From Bacteroidota bacterium (lineage in GTDB: Bacteria; Bacteroidota; Rhodothermia; Rhodothermales; JAHQVL01): a stretch of DNA of 46,816 nt. Under the pieces are notes generated by a model. That model was not told the origin of the DNA, searched no databases, and saw nothing but the letters and a program-made list of their open reading frames with translations. Position 1 is the stretch's first letter, and each line of letters starts with the position of its first letter. The position numbers were made by a program, and so were the translations under genes. Below, piece by piece: positions 137 through 9,053 of the stretch. Location of the stretch: assembly GCA_039111535.1 (NCBI GenBank), contig JBCCIM010000022.1, forward strand, positions 1 to 46,816, read 5' to 3'.

Positions 137-796
137 CTAGTGATGATCGAGGATCTGGCCGTCGATGAGGGGGAATTTCTCGTTGATGAGCATAAAGGGG
201 TTTCCGCTACAAATCACGCGGTAGGTGCGGCTGTTGAAGCGACCATCTGAACGGCTCCGTACGGCTGCCGGCAACTCCTCCATTTCTTCTCTGCCGTACC
301 AGAGTACTTCACGCCGGGTTTCGAGCTTGTTCTTGATAAGCACGCGGCCAATGCCCTGTGGGTGAACCTTCAAGTCTTCGCGCACAGCGTCGGGCAACTG
401 ATCATGGACCAGCAGCGATACAGCATACGCAAAGAGGCGCTTGCTGTATTTACCTTCCAGAATCACCTGGCGTGTAATGACCGGTGTGCCGGCATCCACT
501 TCAAGCCAGGGATGCCGGTCGGCCAGCTCTCTTGTATCCTGCTCCAGTAATTTCACCATGACAGGCTCCATTACATACGCCTCGATGAACTTTGTTACTG
601 TTCCATCGATGGTAAGCAACGCGCGCTGGTAAGGCGTAAGCGTGCGTAGATTAATCTCACGCAAGTGCGCCGGTTTTTCGACTTGCGCCACCAGCAAATC
701 ACCAAGCGGATCAAAGCCGGCTCCGTTTATATCGGGGCTGATTGTAATTCGGCTTTCATCCAATCCTGCGGGGGCGCTGTCACCGGCACTACTCAT
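137..796 (-). CDS. Chorismate pyruvate-lyase-like protein (DUF98 / Rv2949c family)
   Basis: This 219-residue soluble protein resembles the DUF98 chorismate-lyase family, typified by mycobacterial Rv2949c, which splits chorismate into 4-hydroxybenzoate and pyruvate. Family-like stretches are LTPYQRALL (53-61) followed by an acidic EAYVMEPV segment, TRQVILEG (108-115), GIGRVLIKN (148-156), an ETRREV segment (159-164) and INEKFP near the C-terminus (204-209). Length fits the family. It is the last gene of a five-gene leftward run and its ATG overlaps the stop of the carrier-protein gene by 4 bp (ATGA), so the two are probably translationally coupled. In context it should supply 4-hydroxybenzoate to the adenylating enzymes encoded upstream. 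Family assignment is good; the exact product is inferred from the family, not from a solved active site. Confidence 0.8.
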   Translation of the reverse strand: MSSAGDSAPAGLDESRITISPDINGAGFDPLGDLLVAQVEKPAHLREINLRTLTPYQRALLTIDGTVTKFIEAYVMEPVMVKLLEQDTRELADRHPWLEVDAGTPVITRQVILEGKYSKRLFAYAVSLLVHDQLPDAVREDLKVHPQGIGRVLIKNKLETRREVLWYGREEMEELPAAVRSRSDGRFNSRTYRVICSGNPFMLINEKFPLIDGQILDHH

Positions 797-1071
797 GCGT
801 TTCCTGCAATTTTTTCCTGAACTACGTTCGCGATATCCGCAAGGGTATCGAAGTAGTCTACACTCATTTCGAAGGTTTCAAACTTGATATCGTAGTGGTC
901 TTCAAGAGAGGCAGCCAGTTCTACGATGGTGATCGAGTCAAGGATACCGCCGGTAATCAGTGCAGTGGCATCTTCCAATACTTCCATCTTTTTGGGAGGA
1001 ATGAAGTCGCCCAGATATTTCTTGGTTACCGCCTTGATCTCGTCAATATTCTGTGTTACCGCTTCGCTCAT
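793..1071 (-). CDS. Acyl carrier protein
   Basis: A 92-residue acidic helical protein with the phosphopantetheine attachment motif GGILDSITIVEL, where Ser46 in D45-S46-I47 is the expected carrier serine. Asp-Ser-Ile rather than the Asp-Ser-Leu of fatty-acid ACP suggests a dedicated carrier, like DltC or secondary-metabolite carriers. It sits directly behind the MBOAT gene (66-bp gap) and overlaps the chorismate-lyase gene by 4 bp. It would carry an acyl or aryl group loaded by one of the adenylating enzymes of the cluster and deliver it to the MBOAT at the membrane. No Shine-Dalgarno is visible; the ATG is the only sensible start. Identity as a carrier protein is firm, its cargo is inferred. 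Confidence 0.88.
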   Translation of the reverse strand: MSEAVTQNIDEIKAVTKKYLGDFIPPKKMEVLEDATALITGGILDSITIVELAASLEDHYDIKFETFEMSVDYFDTLADIANVVQEKIAGNA

Positions 1072-1137
1072 TGTATTATTTAAATCTTGATTACGTAAAG
1101 AGAATGCTGTCCGGTACGGATCAGCCCATGCTGCTTT

Positions 1138-3732
1138 TTAATCTGTCGTAGCAGTTAATCCCAGTTGCAGTCGAGCATCTTCCTCGACCAGGGTTTTGTA
1201 AAGGGCATCAGCAATCAGTTTATGTCCGCGCTTGTTGAGATGGGTATCCCATGGCGCGAGATATACTGATTCAGCATCTACCCCCTGGTATGCTCCTTCT
1301 AGCGTAACAACATTGAAGCCAGATTCTTCAGCATAGCCTTTTAGGATTGGGTGCCATTCTTCATTGTATCCATCTACCTCCTCGGTGCTTGGCACAAAGA
1401 GTCCGATGATCGGAATCTGGTTGGCTTCGCTAAATTCACCCATTTTCTCAAAACTGGTGCGAATAATTTTATCGCCAAATGGATCGAGCCGGCGACGAGC
1501 TTCCTGGTGTGTGATATCTTTGGTCACACCCGCCTCAGCAAAAATATCGTTGAGGAACACGTACGATACGTCGCGCTTGTCCTGTGCCAACTTCTGCAAC
1601 TGCATCAGGAGCCGGCGCTTTTCGGTAGAGTGAATCGCATAGATAATGGCATCAGGCGCAAACTCGGCTGCACGGTTCTCCATCAGGTACAGCGTCTGCA
1701 CCGGACTGTATCCGCCGACAGCAAAGCTGAGCACTTCATACTTGTCGTACGTCTGTCCCGCGTGCTGTGCATTCAGCATCTGTTCGATAAGCGCAGGGAA
1801 AATTTCTTCGTCGTCAACGCCGGCGCCCTGTTCAAACGAGGCACCCATAAAGGCGATGCGGAAGGTACCCGGCTCCTTTTCTTTGGCGTAGGACTTGTCG
1901 CGCATGCCCCATTCGTTCACGTTGAACGGTGCATCTTTGATGATGCCACTGTAGGAAGGAATGAGTTCATACACCAGCACATCTTCACCCGGCTGTACGG
2001 CATCCGAGTTCATTGTGGCTTTCCAGTTATCCGGTTTCTCTCCTTTGTCGGTCCACCAGATCTGCGACGTGTAGCTATTCCCGTCGATCAGGCCTTCATA
2101 GTATCCGCGCTCCAATACACCCTGGTCACGATCGTTGAGCCGGCTTTCTTTGAGCGAGGCAATAAATGAGGCAGACTTTTCGCCAAAATTGTTGTTCACG
2201 CGAGGCATCCCAACGGCTACCAACGCCAGCACACCAATACTTGTACGCAGCGCAACGCTATAGAAAGGCAATTCATTTTCATCCCACAGCAAGCTCCATC
2301 CCTTGAAATCCATAAACAAATGCGTTACCAGCATTGCGAAAATGCCAAATATACCCAGCATCAGCAGGCCATATTCTTGCAAACTCGCTGTGCCACCAAC
2401 CATCATCACAGACCACCAGTCAGCAATCGAGTGACTACTCCAGAAAGACCAGAGCACACTCATAAAAATGAACATGCCCAGAATCCGCATAGACTGGCGA
2501 GATGCCAGGCCCCACGACCATCCTGTGTCCTCGTCGTCTTTAGGTGTTAGATCTTTGGTTGTTTTGATGGTATTGATTACCACAAACATACCCAGGATCC
2601 CCCAGTAAAGGCCGTCAATCGCGTTTAGCGGAAAGGCACCCCGCAGCCAAAACCATTGGTACGAGTGCAGCAGCCAGGTTGCGACAAACACAAGCATTGT
2701 CCCAAGTACACGGGCGCGCATCATGCCCATCTTTCTGATCTTCATCACCAGCGGGTAATACAGCACCTTCGCCATGAAGTCCTTCCAGTAGATGTTCAGC
2801 TTGCGCCAGACTTCGTTGAATTCACCAGCGAGGAAGTAATGGTGGTGCGTCTCAGGCAAGTTCATGCCGAACAGGCACAAGATCCCAATGATCACATGGA
2901 AGAGTCCGGATACACGCAGGTAGATCAGATAGCTGGAAATGATGAACAGCACAACCTGCCAGAGGCCTTGAATTTCTTCAGGCGTAGGGACGAGATAGTA
3001 ATACACCGCCCGATACAGGATGAGGTGTGTTACCCCACGAAATATCCAGAGTACCCCTTTCTGATAAATTTTGTAGTCGTCGTCGTTGTAATACGTTTTC
3101 CGAAACAGCTGGTAGTCAATTACCGGAAAAAGTGGAAACGCAACATTGGGCAGTAAAAAGAAATAGGCAAGCCGCTCCCAGATGGTCGCCGGCTTCCGTT
3201 CGTGGCGCAGGTCGTGCATGTAAATCACAAGCCTGAACATGAACATGGCGCCCAGAATAGGCAGAATCAACTCTGACCACGACGTTGTCACCCAACCGCC
3301 GCGCAACACAACGAGGCCGGCAACTGCAAGCAGCACCAGCGCAACACGCGCACGAAACGGTATCGGTAAATGACACAATCCAATCAAGCCGAGCCCTATA
3401 CCGATGAGCCAAAGCCCATTTACCCAGCTAAAAACCGCGATTATGGCTGCAAGCGAGAGGAATACAAAGAAGGGCAACCGTAAAGAAGGCGCCAGGACGG
3501 CATGAATAATAAAGCCGCCAAAAATGATAGGCAGAATGATATGCAGCGCGCTGGCATCTTCTACGTTGAAAAGCCTGATCGAGAAAATGACAACAGCCAG
3601 TTGTAAAACCAGCACCAACAATTTGGGAAACTGAATATTACTGGCCAGGAATGGAATGCCCATCCCTTTGGTCATCCCGCCAGCGCTTCCCTCGCCCAAC
3701 TGCTCTGAAACTACTTTGGTATACTTTAACAT
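1138..3732 (-). CDS. MBOAT acyltransferase fused to an SGNH-hydrolase-like domain
   Basis: An 864-residue two-part protein. Residues about 35-530 form a polytopic membrane domain with MBOAT features: a conserved cytosolic stretch EVWRKLNIYWKDF (307-319) and a candidate catalytic His356 in TWLLHSYQ. Residues about 540-864 form a soluble SGNH/GDSL-like domain with a serine block GAS (Ser632), a glycine block (AVGGYSP) and a C-terminal D-x-H-x-N block (Asp829, His831, Asn833). MBOATs move acyl groups from a carrier across the membrane to an extracellular hydroxyl; SGNH partners such as DltD or AlgX/AlgJ act on the outer side. Fusion of both into one chain beside a carrier protein and adenylating enzymes suggests a complete export-acylation machine. 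The acceptor is unknown. The serine block is GAS rather than GDS, so the SGNH part may be a transferase or a binding domain instead of a hydrolase. Confidence 0.85.
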   Translation of the reverse strand: MLKYTKVVSEQLGEGSAGGMTKGMGIPFLASNIQFPKLLVLVLQLAVVIFSIRLFNVEDASALHIILPIIFGGFIIHAVLAPSLRLPFFVFLSLAAIIAVFSWVNGLWLIGIGLGLIGLCHLPIPFRARVALVLLAVAGLVVLRGGWVTTSWSELILPILGAMFMFRLVIYMHDLRHERKPATIWERLAYFFLLPNVAFPLFPVIDYQLFRKTYYNDDDYKIYQKGVLWIFRGVTHLILYRAVYYYLVPTPEEIQGLWQVVLFIISSYLIYLRVSGLFHVIIGILCLFGMNLPETHHHYFLAGEFNEVWRKLNIYWKDFMAKVLYYPLVMKIRKMGMMRARVLGTMLVFVATWLLHSYQWFWLRGAFPLNAIDGLYWGILGMFVVINTIKTTKDLTPKDDEDTGWSWGLASRQSMRILGMFIFMSVLWSFWSSHSIADWWSVMMVGGTASLQEYGLLMLGIFGIFAMLVTHLFMDFKGWSLLWDENELPFYSVALRTSIGVLALVAVGMPRVNNNFGEKSASFIASLKESRLNDRDQGVLERGYYEGLIDGNSYTSQIWWTDKGEKPDNWKATMNSDAVQPGEDVLVYELIPSYSGIIKDAPFNVNEWGMRDKSYAKEKEPGTFRIAFMGASFEQGAGVDDEEIFPALIEQMLNAQHAGQTYDKYEVLSFAVGGYSPVQTLYLMENRAAEFAPDAIIYAIHSTEKRRLLMQLQKLAQDKRDVSYVFLNDIFAEAGVTKDITHQEARRRLDPFGDKIIRTSFEKMGEFSEANQIPIIGLFVPSTEEVDGYNEEWHPILKGYAEESGFNVVTLEGAYQGVDAESVYLAPWDTHLNKRGHKLIADALYKTLVEEDARLQLGLTATTD

Positions 3733-3810
3733 AATGTAGATCTGTGGGACATTAAATACGGAGCCGGCACGAGGCCGGCTTTTCCGTACATCCTGAAATA
3801 TTGCAGGATA

Positions 3811-5121
3811 TTAGCTCCCGGCTACTGCCAGGTTAAGTTTTCTGTGATCTGTAAAGCGACGGGCTTTCAGGTCAAACCGTGGCAGTGTCCCCTGGGGCAC
3901 CACATTCAGCTGGACACGCAGTCCAAGACCGTTACGAAGCACCTTCACAATGTCTTTGGCCGTCTCTTCAGGATTTTCGCCGCCAATCTCGACCCGGATT
4001 TCCATTTCGTCCAGGTTTTTGTTGCGGTAAACATCCACAGCGAACTCTCCAACATCTTCAAACCGGCGCACGATGTTCTCAATTGCGCTCGGGAATACGT
4101 TGATGCCGCGCACAATCAATGCATCGTCAATGCGTCCGATGACCCCCCCTTTGAGCCGGCGGAACGTACGTTCGCTGCTGGTTTCAGAAGTATCGATCGC
4201 CACACGGTCACCTGTACGGTACCGGATAACTGGCATGCCGAGTCGGCCGAGGTTCGTAATAATGAGCTCGCCTTCGTTAGCAGGATTACCTTCTTTGTCG
4301 ACTACTTCAGCAATAAATTCAGCTTCATTGACAAAGAAAGAGCCGCTATTGGCCGCTTCGAAGCCCCATGCACCAACTTCCGTTGCGCCGGCATGGTCAC
4401 AGCATCGCGCGCCCCAAACCCGTTCGATCCGCTCTTTGGTAGCCGGCAAACTGGCGCCAGGCTCTCCTGCGTGAATGGTGATGCGCACATTGGATTCTGA
4501 CAGGTCGATACCTTCCTGCTCTGCTACTTCAGCGAGATGCAGGGCATAAGTTGGTGTACAAACCAGTACCGTCACTTCGTTTTTGAGCATAAACTTGATG
4601 CGCTGCAATGACGACATACCGCCACCAGGCAGCGCCAGCGCGCCGATGCGCTGTGCTCCTGCGTATGCGCTCCAGAACCCGATAAACGGCCCAAAAGAGA
4701 ACGCAAAGAAAATGCGATCGGAAGGCGTTACGCCGGCGCCCCGATATACTGCTGCCCAGCATCGTGCCCACCAATCCCAGCTTTCTTCGGTATCAAGGCA
4801 GCGCAGTGGCTCACCGGTGGTACCGGAAGTCTGGTGAATCCGCGTATATAATTCGAGCGGAAACGTAAGATTGGTGCCATAAGGCGGGTTATCCACCTGG
4901 TCGTGCACAAGCTCCTGCTTCGTGGTAAACGGCAGTTTGCGAAAATCTTCAAACGACTTGATATCGCTTGACGACGTAATGCCGGCAGCATTCAGCTTCT
5001 GCTGGTAAAAGGTGTTGTGGGTGAGGATTTTATCCAGCATTATCTGGAATTTCCTCAGCTGCACTTCTTCAAGCGCGTGTCGGCCCAGCTTTTCAATAAA
5101 TGGATCTAAATTACTAATCAT
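3811..5121 (-). CDS. PaaK-family aryl-CoA ligase (phenylacetate-CoA ligase-like)
   Basis: A 436-residue ANL-superfamily enzyme of PaaK length. The phosphate-binding loop is QTSGTTGEPL (97-106), followed by HAGATEVG (243-250), the ribose-contacting YRTGDR (301-306) and the PaaK-typical hinge region with RGINVFPSAIE (338-348). PaaK enzymes adenylate aryl or arylacetic acids and then form the CoA thioester. With the chorismate-lyase gene in the same run, the natural substrate may be 4-hydroxybenzoate, but that is inference. It lies between the FAAL-like gene (134-bp gap) and the MBOAT gene (78-bp gap), all in one direction. Having two different adenylating enzymes in one cluster is unusual: one may make the CoA ester and the other load the carrier protein. 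Confidence 0.88.
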   Translation of the reverse strand: MISNLDPFIEKLGRHALEEVQLRKFQIMLDKILTHNTFYQQKLNAAGITSSSDIKSFEDFRKLPFTTKQELVHDQVDNPPYGTNLTFPLELYTRIHQTSGTTGEPLRCLDTEESWDWWARCWAAVYRGAGVTPSDRIFFAFSFGPFIGFWSAYAGAQRIGALALPGGGMSSLQRIKFMLKNEVTVLVCTPTYALHLAEVAEQEGIDLSESNVRITIHAGEPGASLPATKERIERVWGARCCDHAGATEVGAWGFEAANSGSFFVNEAEFIAEVVDKEGNPANEGELIITNLGRLGMPVIRYRTGDRVAIDTSETSSERTFRRLKGGVIGRIDDALIVRGINVFPSAIENIVRRFEDVGEFAVDVYRNKNLDEMEIRVEIGGENPEETAKDIVKVLRNGLGLRVQLNVVPQGTLPRFDLKARRFTDHRKLNLAVAGS

Positions 5122-5255
5122 TGCTATCTCACAATCGCTATCAAAAATGCTTCATGAAGAAGATTTCGACATTAAAGACGTTAGCCGCTCGAACAGACAC
5201 ACAAGGTGCCACACGCAGGGCGTATGTGCCGGCGGCGCGATTCACTCCCGGGGGT

Positions 5256-6977
5256 TTAGCTTATATCAGCCTCTATTGAAGATTCGTCAACACGATAGGG
5301 TTTAAGTTTTCCGTCGATGTACATCTGACGGAAATGCCGATGCCGACGCTTGCCACTGGATGTTTTCGCCAGTGTGCCGGCTTTTACAAGCTCAATATCT
5401 GATACGGTAACACCCAGGCGCAGCAATATTTGCTTGGTGATGTCACCAGAAATGTCTTCCAGGCTGCGGGTTAACGGCTCGCGTACTTCAGACACAACCA
5501 CAACACGCTGCGTGCCATGGGCGCCTTCATCAACACCAAAAACGACAAAGCTGCCTGTTCGTAACCCTTCTATATCAAAAAGAATGGGCTCAAAATCGCT
5601 TGGGTCATACTTTTTACCGCGTAGTACAATCCGCTCTTTTTCACGACCCACCCAGTACAGGTTGTTATTCCGCTTGTACCCGATGTCGCCCGTTAGCAGC
5701 AAGTCGTTGACAAGCGCTGCATCTGTAGATTCCTGGTCTTCTTTGTAGTAGAGCAACCGCGACGGCGTGCGAAGCGCAACGCGACCTACGCGACCTTCAG
5801 GTAACAGCTCATTGTCATCCGAAAGAATTTCGATGCCCAGTGTTGGGTGTGGTTGGCCACAACTCACAATGGTGACAACGCTTTCACTGTCTTCCGGCAC
5901 TTGCTCGGCAACAAAGTCACCGTATAGCTTGCTCGGATCGAGGTGTTCAACCTGGTACGGCTCATCCATACCGGTGAAGGTTGCACCGCCCACGTTTTCA
6001 GCGCAGCCAAAGTTCATTTTCAGTGCGCTTTCCTGCAATCCGTAGTCTTTGAACCGCTCGTAGAACGCCACAACTGTATCGTAGTGGATTCTTTCAGCAG
6101 CATTCCAAAAAGCTTTGACGTGGCTGAGATCGAGGCCTTCGATCTGCCGATCGCGCGTACGCTGGGCAGTGATGGCATATCCGAAGTTAGGAGACCAAGT
6201 AAAGGTCGAGCCCGTATCTTGCATGGCTTTAAGCCAGAGATAAGGGCGTTTAACAAATTCGTGTGGACTGAACAGGATCAGCGGAATGCCGGCGGTCATG
6301 CACAACATAAAGTTGTTGATCAGCCCCATATCGTGGTACAAAGGCGTCCAGTTAAAGCAAATATCTTCCTGCGTGATACCGCAAGCAGCTTCCATACCAT
6401 CCAGCGCAGCAAGGATGCCTTCCTGGCTCCAAACGCAAACGCGTGGAAATCCTGTTGTACCAGAAGTTAGCTGCATCGCGCCGATGGCGTCCGAAGCAGG
6501 GTAATAGCGTTCGATGTCTCCACCTTCGCCCGGCAGCACAATCTCAGATTCGCCAAATAGGAGCGACACGCCTTCCAGGTCACCTGTCAACTCTTCCCGA
6601 AGATCGGTCATCGTATCAGCACAAAGCACCACGCGGGCGCCTGATTTGCGAACGGTGTGCTTCAGAATTTTGGGCAGGTCGAGCATACTTCCTTGCACAG
6701 CAGGAGGTGCAACGAGCAGCGGATTGCCGCCCAGCAACAGCACAGCCAGAATGGAGCGGGCCGATAAGTGGCCACTTGGCAGCACGATGACACAAACGTC
6801 ACCTTGCTTAAATCCTTGTTTCTTGATTTGAGCAGCAACTTCGAGGGATTGGGTAAAAAACTGCTCGTAGCTGATCCAGGACAGGGACTCTTTAGGATCG
6901 TAATAAGCAATCGCCTTGCTTTCAGGGGCTTCATCTAGCCGGCGATATAGCCTCTCTTGAAGGGAAGCGTTAGTCAT
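5256..6977 (-). CDS. FAAL-like acyl/aryl-AMP ligase
   Basis: A 573-residue ANL-superfamily enzyme. It has the loop LTSGTTGFPRV (170-180), TPLYHDMGLI (211-220), which is typical of fatty-acyl-AMP ligases, a CAENVGGATF segment where FAALs carry a related motif, a YWVGREKERIVLRG hinge, and a C-terminal KTSSGKRRHR segment with the candidate catalytic Lys543. FAAL-type enzymes pass acyl adenylates to a carrier protein rather than to CoA, which suits the ACP three genes downstream. It is the first gene of the leftward five-gene run, with about 430 bp of non-coding DNA upstream that should hold the promoter. The substrate could be a fatty acid or 4-hydroxybenzoate; mycobacterial FadD22 is a precedent for a 4-hydroxybenzoate-AMP ligase working with a carrier domain. 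Confidence 0.85.
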   Translation of the reverse strand: MTNASLQERLYRRLDEAPESKAIAYYDPKESLSWISYEQFFTQSLEVAAQIKKQGFKQGDVCVIVLPSGHLSARSILAVLLLGGNPLLVAPPAVQGSMLDLPKILKHTVRKSGARVVLCADTMTDLREELTGDLEGVSLLFGESEIVLPGEGGDIERYYPASDAIGAMQLTSGTTGFPRVCVWSQEGILAALDGMEAACGITQEDICFNWTPLYHDMGLINNFMLCMTAGIPLILFSPHEFVKRPYLWLKAMQDTGSTFTWSPNFGYAITAQRTRDRQIEGLDLSHVKAFWNAAERIHYDTVVAFYERFKDYGLQESALKMNFGCAENVGGATFTGMDEPYQVEHLDPSKLYGDFVAEQVPEDSESVVTIVSCGQPHPTLGIEILSDDNELLPEGRVGRVALRTPSRLLYYKEDQESTDAALVNDLLLTGDIGYKRNNNLYWVGREKERIVLRGKKYDPSDFEPILFDIEGLRTGSFVVFGVDEGAHGTQRVVVVSEVREPLTRSLEDISGDITKQILLRLGVTVSDIELVKAGTLAKTSSGKRRHRHFRQMYIDGKLKPYRVDESSIEADIS

Positions 6978-7964: not shown

Positions 7965-8447
7965 CTAACTCCCAACGCGAAGGCCTACAACCTCCACTTC
8001 AAATATCATAATAGAGTTTGGCGGCACTGAACCCTGTCCGAAAGCGCCATAACCCAACGAAGGAGGAATCACGAGCTGGCGCTCACCGCCTTCACGCATG
8101 CCCTGTAATCCTTCGGTCCAGCCCTGAATCACATTGGTTGTACCAATAATCACACGGATAGGGGTGCGACCAGGGAGTAGAACAGAGCTGTCAAAAATCA
8201 ACCCGTTGGTAAGCCATCCGGTGTAGTCTACAAAAAGGGTGTCGCCAACCGCAGCTGCCGGCCCTTCACCATCCACAAAGTCAAAGTACTTTAATCCGGA
8301 GTCGGTTACGGTAAAATCCTCTTCAGCAACGACACGCGCCTGAGGACCTTCAATCATATCATCCGGATCTTCGTTGCTATCACACGCAGCAACAAAGAAG
8401 AGGGCAAGAAACAAAGAAAATCCAGTTACGATCTTACGATTGATCAT
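7965..8447 (-). CDS. FKBP-type peptidyl-prolyl isomerase, lipoprotein
   Basis: A 160-residue protein that starts with a lipoprotein signal (lipobox VAAC, then DSNEDPD) and continues with one FKBP domain (about 48-158). The canonical FKBP stations are present: VDYTGWL, IFDSSV, VIQGWTEGLQGM with the pocket tryptophan, and IPPSLGYG followed by VPPNSIMIFEVE. It should isomerise X-Pro bonds and help folding of exported proteins in the periplasm. It lies just upstream of the P-loop kinase gene and is followed upstream by a second, more divergent FKBP lipoprotein, so the pair looks like a tandem duplication. Confidence 0.9.
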   Translation of the reverse strand: MINRKIVTGFSLFLALFFVAACDSNEDPDDMIEGPQARVVAEEDFTVTDSGLKYFDFVDGEGPAAAVGDTLFVDYTGWLTNGLIFDSSVLLPGRTPIRVIIGTTNVIQGWTEGLQGMREGGERQLVIPPSLGYGAFGQGSVPPNSIMIFEVEVVGLRVGS

Positions 8448-8594
8448 AATGTCTATAATTAGGTGAGGGAGTAAATTTAGAGCGTCTCTATGGGTAAGGC
8501 TCAGATCCGTCGATAATACCAGGCCGTGCCGGTTGTTTCAACAAAGCAAAAGCTACACCCGTAGACCATAAAATCACAAGGCAAATCGGCAATA

Positions 8595-9053
8595 TTACTG
8601 AGCGCCGAGCAATGCAATTTCAAACGTGAGGGTTTCATTTGACGGGACGAGGTCATTGCCTTCTTCGCCATAGCCGAGTTCGGGGGGGATAACAACCTGG
8701 CGCAAACCGCCTAGGTACATACCACTCACGCCTTCATCAATGCCTGCAATTACATTGCCAAAACCTAAAGCAAACTGAATAGGCTGGCCGGCCAGAATAG
8801 AGCTGTCAAAAATGGTCTCATCTTCAAGCCAGGCATTGTAGTCGATCAGGACCACATCACCTGAATCAGCCGTGACACGGGCTGTATCGCCAACAACGAG
8901 ATCAAAATATTTCAACCCGGTTGCGGTTACGATATAGCTTGAATCTGCTACAAACTCAGGTTTGGGAGACGGTAAAATGATGGGATCTGGATCTCCAGAG
9001 TCACAACTACTACACACAAGCAACAAGGCCACCAGCAGGGACGCAGGCTTCAT
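8595..9053 (-). CDS. Divergent FKBP-type peptidyl-prolyl isomerase lipoprotein
   Basis: A 152-residue lipoprotein (signal MKPASLLVALLLVCSSC, then DSGDP) with one FKBP domain. It keeps IFDSSI, IPPELGYG and a C-terminal LTFEIALLG strand. The VIxGW segment of active FKBPs reads VIAGIDEG, so the tryptophan that floors the proline pocket is replaced by isoleucine; this may lower isomerase activity or change ligand preference. It is a paralogue of the neighbouring FKBP lipoprotein, 147 bp away and in the same direction. It is probably periplasmic, attached to a membrane by lipid. Confidence 0.85.
   Translation of the reverse strand: MKPASLLVALLLVCSSCDSGDPDPIILPSPKPEFVADSSYIVTATGLKYFDLVVGDTARVTADSGDVVLIDYNAWLEDETIFDSSILAGQPIQFALGFGNVIAGIDEGVSGMYLGGLRQVVIPPELGYGEEGNDLVPSNETLTFEIALLGAQ

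Follow-up and report, generated by a model that had tools for sequence, protein, structure and literature searches.

A Dlt-like operon with a predicted 4-hydroxybenzoate supply, a candidate envelope aroylation system in a Rhodothermales bacterium

The window analyzed here is the entire contig JBCCIM010000022.1 (C22; 46,816 bases) from the 6.6-Mb draft genome of a Bacteroidota bacterium whose closest named relatives are metagenome-assembled genomes (MAGs) of the Rhodothermaceae and Rhodothermales. Its left end carries five genes that are read here, with slightly better than even confidence, as an operon for carrier-dependent, Dlt-like acylation of the cell envelope, in which the transferred group would be 4-hydroxybenzoyl or a simple derivative of it. 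The original prediction for this DNA had named five leftward genes and their families. All five open reading frames (ORFs) were verified at their coordinates on the minus strand, in the order FAAL-type ligase, PaaK-type ligase, MBOAT-SGNH fusion, acyl carrier protein and chorismate lyase, and profile searches and fold comparisons agree with the family assignments. The intergenic gaps measure 134, 78, and 66 bp, and the carrier and lyase ORFs overlap by 4 bp, so that the five genes are read as a single operon. Gaps of 66–134 bp are too small to hold an extra gene, such as a separate DltX or DltD.

Central to this system is the fusion protein (1138..3732, minus strand), in which a DltB-like MBOAT (approximately residues 50–480) is joined to an SGNH acyltransferase (approximately residues 575–864) by a linker containing the motif RGYYExL, as judged from the AlphaFold fold and from conserved residues. 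An alignment of 66 sequences underlies both the model (pLDDT 89.3, pTM 0.84) and the counts of residue conservation. Among solved structures, residues 59–441 match DltB best (Z 20.5 and 19.8), ahead of PORCN and HHAT, and residues 564–849 match the SGNH protein CgnD best (Z 20.9), ahead of GDSL esterases. The Pfam MBOAT model PF03062 matches neither this protein nor anything else in the genome, and the MBOAT identity, which had been called from the sequence, therefore rests on the fold; the SGNH domain does have a sequence match (PF13472, E 4e-5). Catalytic residues are intact in both halves. His356 and Asn313 of the MBOAT are present in 66 of 66 aligned sequences, as is Ser632 of the SGNH domain, with His831 kept in 65 and Asp829 in 62. 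The linker (residues 543–562) is modeled with pLDDT below 50, yet it contains RGYYExL, whose Tyr545 is again found in all 66 sequences. In DltX and PatA a tyrosine within an FXYXXF motif passes the acyl group from the MBOAT on to the SGNH protein (PMC12148441). The RGYYExL motif differs from FXYXXF, and by analogy with Dlt and PatAB Tyr545 is a candidate acyl-tyrosine shuttle. The fold, the intact catalytic residues and the adjoining carrier gene support the view, already put forward in the original prediction, of a DltB-like, carrier-fed MBOAT-SGNH enzyme, predicted to interact with that carrier and to transfer acyl groups to an extracytoplasmic polymer.

The acid to be transferred would be supplied by the product of the lyase gene (137..796, minus strand), an Rv2949c-like (DUF98) chorismate pyruvate-lyase from which 4-hydroxybenzoate is expected. 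The protein matches PF01947 with an E-value of 1.9e-19 (70.6 bits against a cut-off of 22). The best structural match of its model is AF1396 (2nwi, DUF98), while E. coli chorismate lyase UbiC with bound product (1jd3) comes lower (E 8e-6), among UTRA-domain regulators of the same fold. Across 20 homologs Arg109 is invariant and Glu206 nearly so, and these are presumably the counterparts of the catalytic Arg and Glu of UbiC. The chorismate-lyase-like call thus holds up, and the sequence and fold matches support a bona fide member of the chorismate lyase family with 4-hydroxybenzoate as its predicted product. No homolog of the lyase turned up in the 98 further genomes of the order sample or in the 393 further genomes of the phylum sample, which makes vertical inheritance within the order unlikely; plasmid records gave no match to it. 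The closest homologs (44–57% identity) occur instead in a Gammaproteobacterium (locus L119), a member of the Planctomycetota (L121), and three genomes of one further phylum (L120, L126, L128), and in all five a PaaK homolog directly adjoins the lyase gene.

The PaaK-type aryl acid ligase of the window (3811..5121, minus strand; PF14535, E 7e-19; TIGR02155, 215 bits; PDB 4r1l) is the proposed activator of 4-hydroxybenzoate. It scores below the equivalog cut-offs and is therefore not phenylacetate-CoA ligase itself. A homolog with 49.5% identity adjoins phenylphosphate carboxylase genes in Azoarcus sp. KH32C, and phenylphosphate carboxylase yields 4-hydroxybenzoate. Because of this neighborhood and of the repeated adjacency of lyase and PaaK genes, 4-hydroxybenzoate is the likely substrate of PaaK. 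As separate observations, a Halorussus plasmid (L151:8001-14127) encodes a PaaK-like ligase (42% identity) and, at a distance of approximately 4 kb, a member of the chorismate pyruvate-lyase family, and an exopolysaccharide-like cluster of the gammaproteobacterial genome G1214 (L148:7324-10826) includes a carrier, a chorismate lyase homolog, and an AMP ligase next to a lipid A-type acyltransferase. MBOAT-SGNH was not found in the G1214 genome, and this cluster is perhaps another route of decoration with 4-hydroxybenzoate.

The second ligase, encoded by the first gene of the operon (5256..6977, minus strand), is an adenylating enzyme of the FAAL type (PF00501, E 7e-35) and the proposed loader of the carrier. 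Its best profile is PRK09192 (289 bits), FAAL-type enzymes and one adenylation domain are among its best PDB matches, and by these comparisons it sits closer to FAALs than to acyl-CoA ligases. The carrier itself (793..1071, minus strand; PF00550, E 0.001) has the phosphopantetheine site GGILDSI. It scores 20–27 bits on DltC models, and its best NCBIfam match is NF052616, a carrier linked with the OlsH/OlsI ornithine-lipid genes, at 67 bits against a cut-off of 130. The carrier of one relative scores higher on the OlsH/OlsI-linked model (102 bits). Three of 49 MBOAT-SGNH genomes have FAAL orthologs (46–54% identity), and in each of the three loci concerned (L119, L206, L211) a carrier gene directly adjoins them, so that the carrier-FAAL pair seems to be what links up with the MBOAT. 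In L119 the row runs carrier, FAAL, lyase, PaaK, within a cluster that also has a polysaccharide flippase, a glycosyltransferase, and sulfotransferases; the MBOAT-SGNH genes of this Gammaproteobacterium are on other contigs. Lyase-PaaK pairs likewise occur in three of the 49 genomes, and two of the three genomes with a FAAL ortholog have them (hypergeometric probability by chance, from our own arithmetic, approximately 0.0075); the samples are small and many of the genomes incomplete.

The mechanism proposed below builds on what was computed, that is, gene content, folds, conserved residues, the lyase-PaaK and carrier-FAAL linkages, and the proline module of relatives; cargo, division of work between the ligases, tyrosine shuttle, and acceptor are what we infer. 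Chorismate lyase would convert chorismate to 4-hydroxybenzoate, which the PaaK-type enzyme, the FAAL-type enzyme, or both would activate, the FAAL being the likelier loader of the carrier. On the cytoplasmic side of the membrane the MBOAT half, through His356, would relieve the carrier of its aroyl group and hand this group to Tyr545 of the linker, from which the SGNH half (Ser632, Asp829, His831) would pass it on to an extracytoplasmic acceptor. This acceptor is most likely a glycan, solely because glycan and sugar genes neighbor the relatives, with glycan genes in L119 and L105 and sugar-related families among 92 neighbors.

A cargo of aromatic type is also suggested by relatives of the fusion protein, and among the new evidence theirs is the strongest. 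A scan of genome contigs gave 151 stretches encoding MBOAT-SGNH relatives in many phyla, of which 78 loci were kept; the family occurs in Rhodothermota, Gemmatimonadota, Pseudomonadota, Acidobacteriota, Planctomycetota, Chloroflexota, and others. Neighbors were counted at the 55 loci that have a flank of 3.5 kb or more on one side. A carrier is present at 40 of them, an adenylating enzyme belonging to a single family at 34, a protein of the acyl-CoA dehydrogenase family at 35, and all three at 24. The order MBOAT-SGNH, carrier, proline-type ligase, dehydrogenase is seen in L035, L036, L039, L040, L052, L061, L067, L070, L078, L087, L091, L097, and others, and the carrier of the window, which follows the MBOAT gene, occupies the same position as the carrier of these operons. 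The best stand-alone PDB match of the relatives' adenylating enzyme is the proline ligase PltF, and its pocket code reads DLLYLALVC in 21 of 35 ligases, is kept in 33 of the 35 if one substitution is allowed, and is identical to the PltF residues in an alignment with 6o6e. For the dehydrogenase (one example) the best PDB matches are prolyl-ACP and prolyl-PCP dehydrogenases (4irn, 5zw0). The PigA profile was dropped as proof of a prolyl dehydrogenase, since it also gives 440–448 bits on dehydrogenases outside MBOAT-SGNH operons, including one that has ETF-like genes as neighbors; the argument for a proline-derived cargo is thus carried by pocket code and gene context.

The commonest extra neighbors of MBOAT-SGNH loci are halogenase-like FAD proteins (L048:6867-8090; L066:10374-11786; L082:2974-4290; L089:4998-7861), and the flavin halogenase motifs GxGxxG and WxWxIP are kept in five such proteins from these four loci. 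The flavin halogenases of known pathways modify the pyrrolyl-carrier, and their presence here suggests a halogenated pyrrole cargo. Since proline ligase, a putative prolyl-carrier dehydrogenase, and halogenases all adjoin the family, its usual cargo is probably pyrrole-2-carboxyl, another aroyl group, with partly oxidized proline as an alternative. These ligases, carriers, and dehydrogenases are of the same kind as those of established pyrrole-2-carboxyl modules (PltF/PltE/PltL, PigI/PigA/PigG, and the CloN genes), although the operon of the window is itself without such a module. Known pyrrole-2-carboxyl pathways feed antibiotics or pigments, not MBOAT-SGNH enzymes. A point in favor of a 4-hydroxybenzoyl cargo comes from two genomes that have lyase, PaaK, and FAAL: dehydrogenase searches matched nothing in G107 at E 1e-60 and gave only weak matches (up to 211 bits) in the planctomycete G140. 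The window system looks like a swap of cargo to 4-hydroxybenzoate within a widespread MBOAT-SGNH family. Its MBOAT belongs to a local Rhodothermales lineage, where its sister is a solitary gene of the related MAG.022 and its branch is the longer (0.48 vs. 0.25), from which we infer that the 4-hydroxybenzoate module joined a resident enzyme.

Several observations weigh against a 4-hydroxybenzoyl cargo. The lyase is physically linked to an MBOAT gene in the window only. The linkage that the original prediction expected to be conserved in relatives failed to appear in any other genome, and besides the source genome three MBOAT-SGNH genomes contain both genes unlinked. The MBOATs of genomes that have lyase or FAAL did not group as one clade in the tree. 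Two genomes (G947, G896) have lyase-PaaK with neither a FAAL ortholog nor MBOAT-SGNH, which points to a movable module with other or wider uses. FAALs usually activate fatty acids, and the presence of two ligases for a single acid lacks an explanation; which ligase does what is the largest doubt in the scheme. Contig C58 of the source genome (L195:288-3374) bears an operon of carrier, proline ligase, and dehydrogenase genes that no MBOAT gene adjoins, and pyrrolyl groups could accordingly be a cargo of the window MBOAT as well. Of the original proposal that an aryl group is moved by the MBOAT to the envelope, the aryl part gains from the aroyl-supply genes adjoining MBOAT-SGNH relatives and loses from the missing lyase-MBOAT linkage elsewhere. 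Surface aroylation is partly supported, being right in outline and likely in kind, and unproven in cargo and acceptor.

The main rival to 4-hydroxybenzoyl is a fatty acyl cargo activated by the FAAL. In an account with two cargoes, which is unlikely but deserves serious weight, the FAAL would load a fatty acid for the MBOAT-SGNH enzyme, and lyase and PaaK would make 4-hydroxybenzoyl-CoA for another use, for example by a gene beyond the contig end. Besides the typical FAAL substrates and the lyase-PaaK pairs that stand alone in genomes lacking MBOAT-SGNH, it is favored by the planctomycete G140, where carrier-FAAL is separate from lyase-PaaK, and by G137, which has carrier-FAAL and no detected lyase. 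Against it stand the grouping of all four genes both in the window and in L119, the co-occurrence in two of 49 genomes, and the aromatic appearance of the family's cargo elsewhere. An improbable third account has PaaK and FAAL acting in series on an acid built on 4-hydroxybenzoate, such as a 4-acyloxy- or tailored benzoate that is transferred whole. Two unlike ligases are indeed found together in the window operon and in L119, and, with position 1 being the contig end, tailoring genes could lie beyond it; however, no tailoring or condensing enzyme was recognized in the operon or beside the lyase-PaaK pairs. Least probable, and rated very unlikely, is a chance neighborhood in which MBOAT and carrier serve the pyrrole module of the genome and lyase, PaaK, and FAAL make an unrelated phenolic metabolite, as the genes on C58 and the absence of supply genes adjoining the sister MBOAT in L031 might suggest, for the operon is tight, carrier and lyase overlap, and FAAL, lyase, and PaaK lie beside a carrier in another phylum too.

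With 4-hydroxybenzoyl as the preferred cargo, the system can be set beside known ones. Like Dlt D-alanylation (DltA, DltB, DltC, DltD, DltX), it has an adenylating ligase, a carrier, a DltB-fold MBOAT, and an SGNH transferase, with a tyrosine motif at the MBOAT-SGNH junction. It differs in that MBOAT and SGNH form one polypeptide, whereas DltD and DltX are separate; in that the tyrosine motif, RGYYExL, is in the linker; and in its ligases of FAAL and PaaK types in place of a DltA-type D-Ala ligase, its acid-making lyase, and its predicted aromatic cargo. PatAB-type and alginate and cellulose O-acetyltransferases share the MBOAT and SGNH domains and the candidate acyl-tyrosine relay, but use an acyl-CoA donor and separate MBOAT and SGNH proteins (PMC12148441) where the window has a carrier and a fused protein. 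In the mycobacterial Rv2949c-FadD22 pair a chorismate lyase that shares its Pfam family with the window lyase is combined with an adenylating enzyme that activates 4-hydroxybenzoate; in that phenolic glycolipid route a polyketide synthase elongates the aroyl starter (PMC7205293), whereas the window operon has no polyketide synthase and an MBOAT-SGNH enzyme instead.

For D-alanine, in the Dlt system, a carrier-fed passage across the membrane is established. A 2025 study described polymer acylation in two designs, separate MBOAT and SGNH proteins or fused AT3-SGNH, with MBOAT-SGNH pathways other than Dlt being without a carrier (PMC12148441). A fused, carrier-linked MBOAT-SGNH family with supply genes for aromatic acids would, if true, be a third design and would predict aromatic rings on bacterial surfaces. 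That such single-chain enzymes form a widespread, undescribed class of envelope aroylation, putting carrier-borne aromatic acids on surface glycans from supply modules that can be exchanged (one leading from proline to pyrrole-2-carboxyl, which is sometimes halogenated, and in the window one leading from chorismate to 4-hydroxybenzoyl), is a broader claim held with a little less than even confidence. Searches of one literature library found nothing relevant on pyrrole-2-carboxyl with MBOAT, on MBOAT, SGNH, acyl carrier protein, and polysaccharide together, or on chorismate lyase with MBOAT. The pyrrole version is present in several named isolates, among them Pseudothauera rhizosphaerae, Methylomonas sp. 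SURF-2, and Paraglaciecola arctica, which makes the idea testable.

Three further MBOAT-SGNH genes are encoded in the source genome, two on contig C66 and one on C4. Paralogs in tandem pairs or triplets are also seen in Rhodothermales genomes (L110:13785-19094; L032; L046), and plasmid records contain one match over most of the MBOAT-SGNH protein. Downstream of the lyase the readable sequence runs to the contig end (1..136) with no further feature, and the left end shares no stretch of at least 15 bases with contigs C58, C66, C79, or C170. Immediately upstream of the operon are two adjacent genes for FKBP-like lipoproteins (7965-9053; the Pfam run covered the first).

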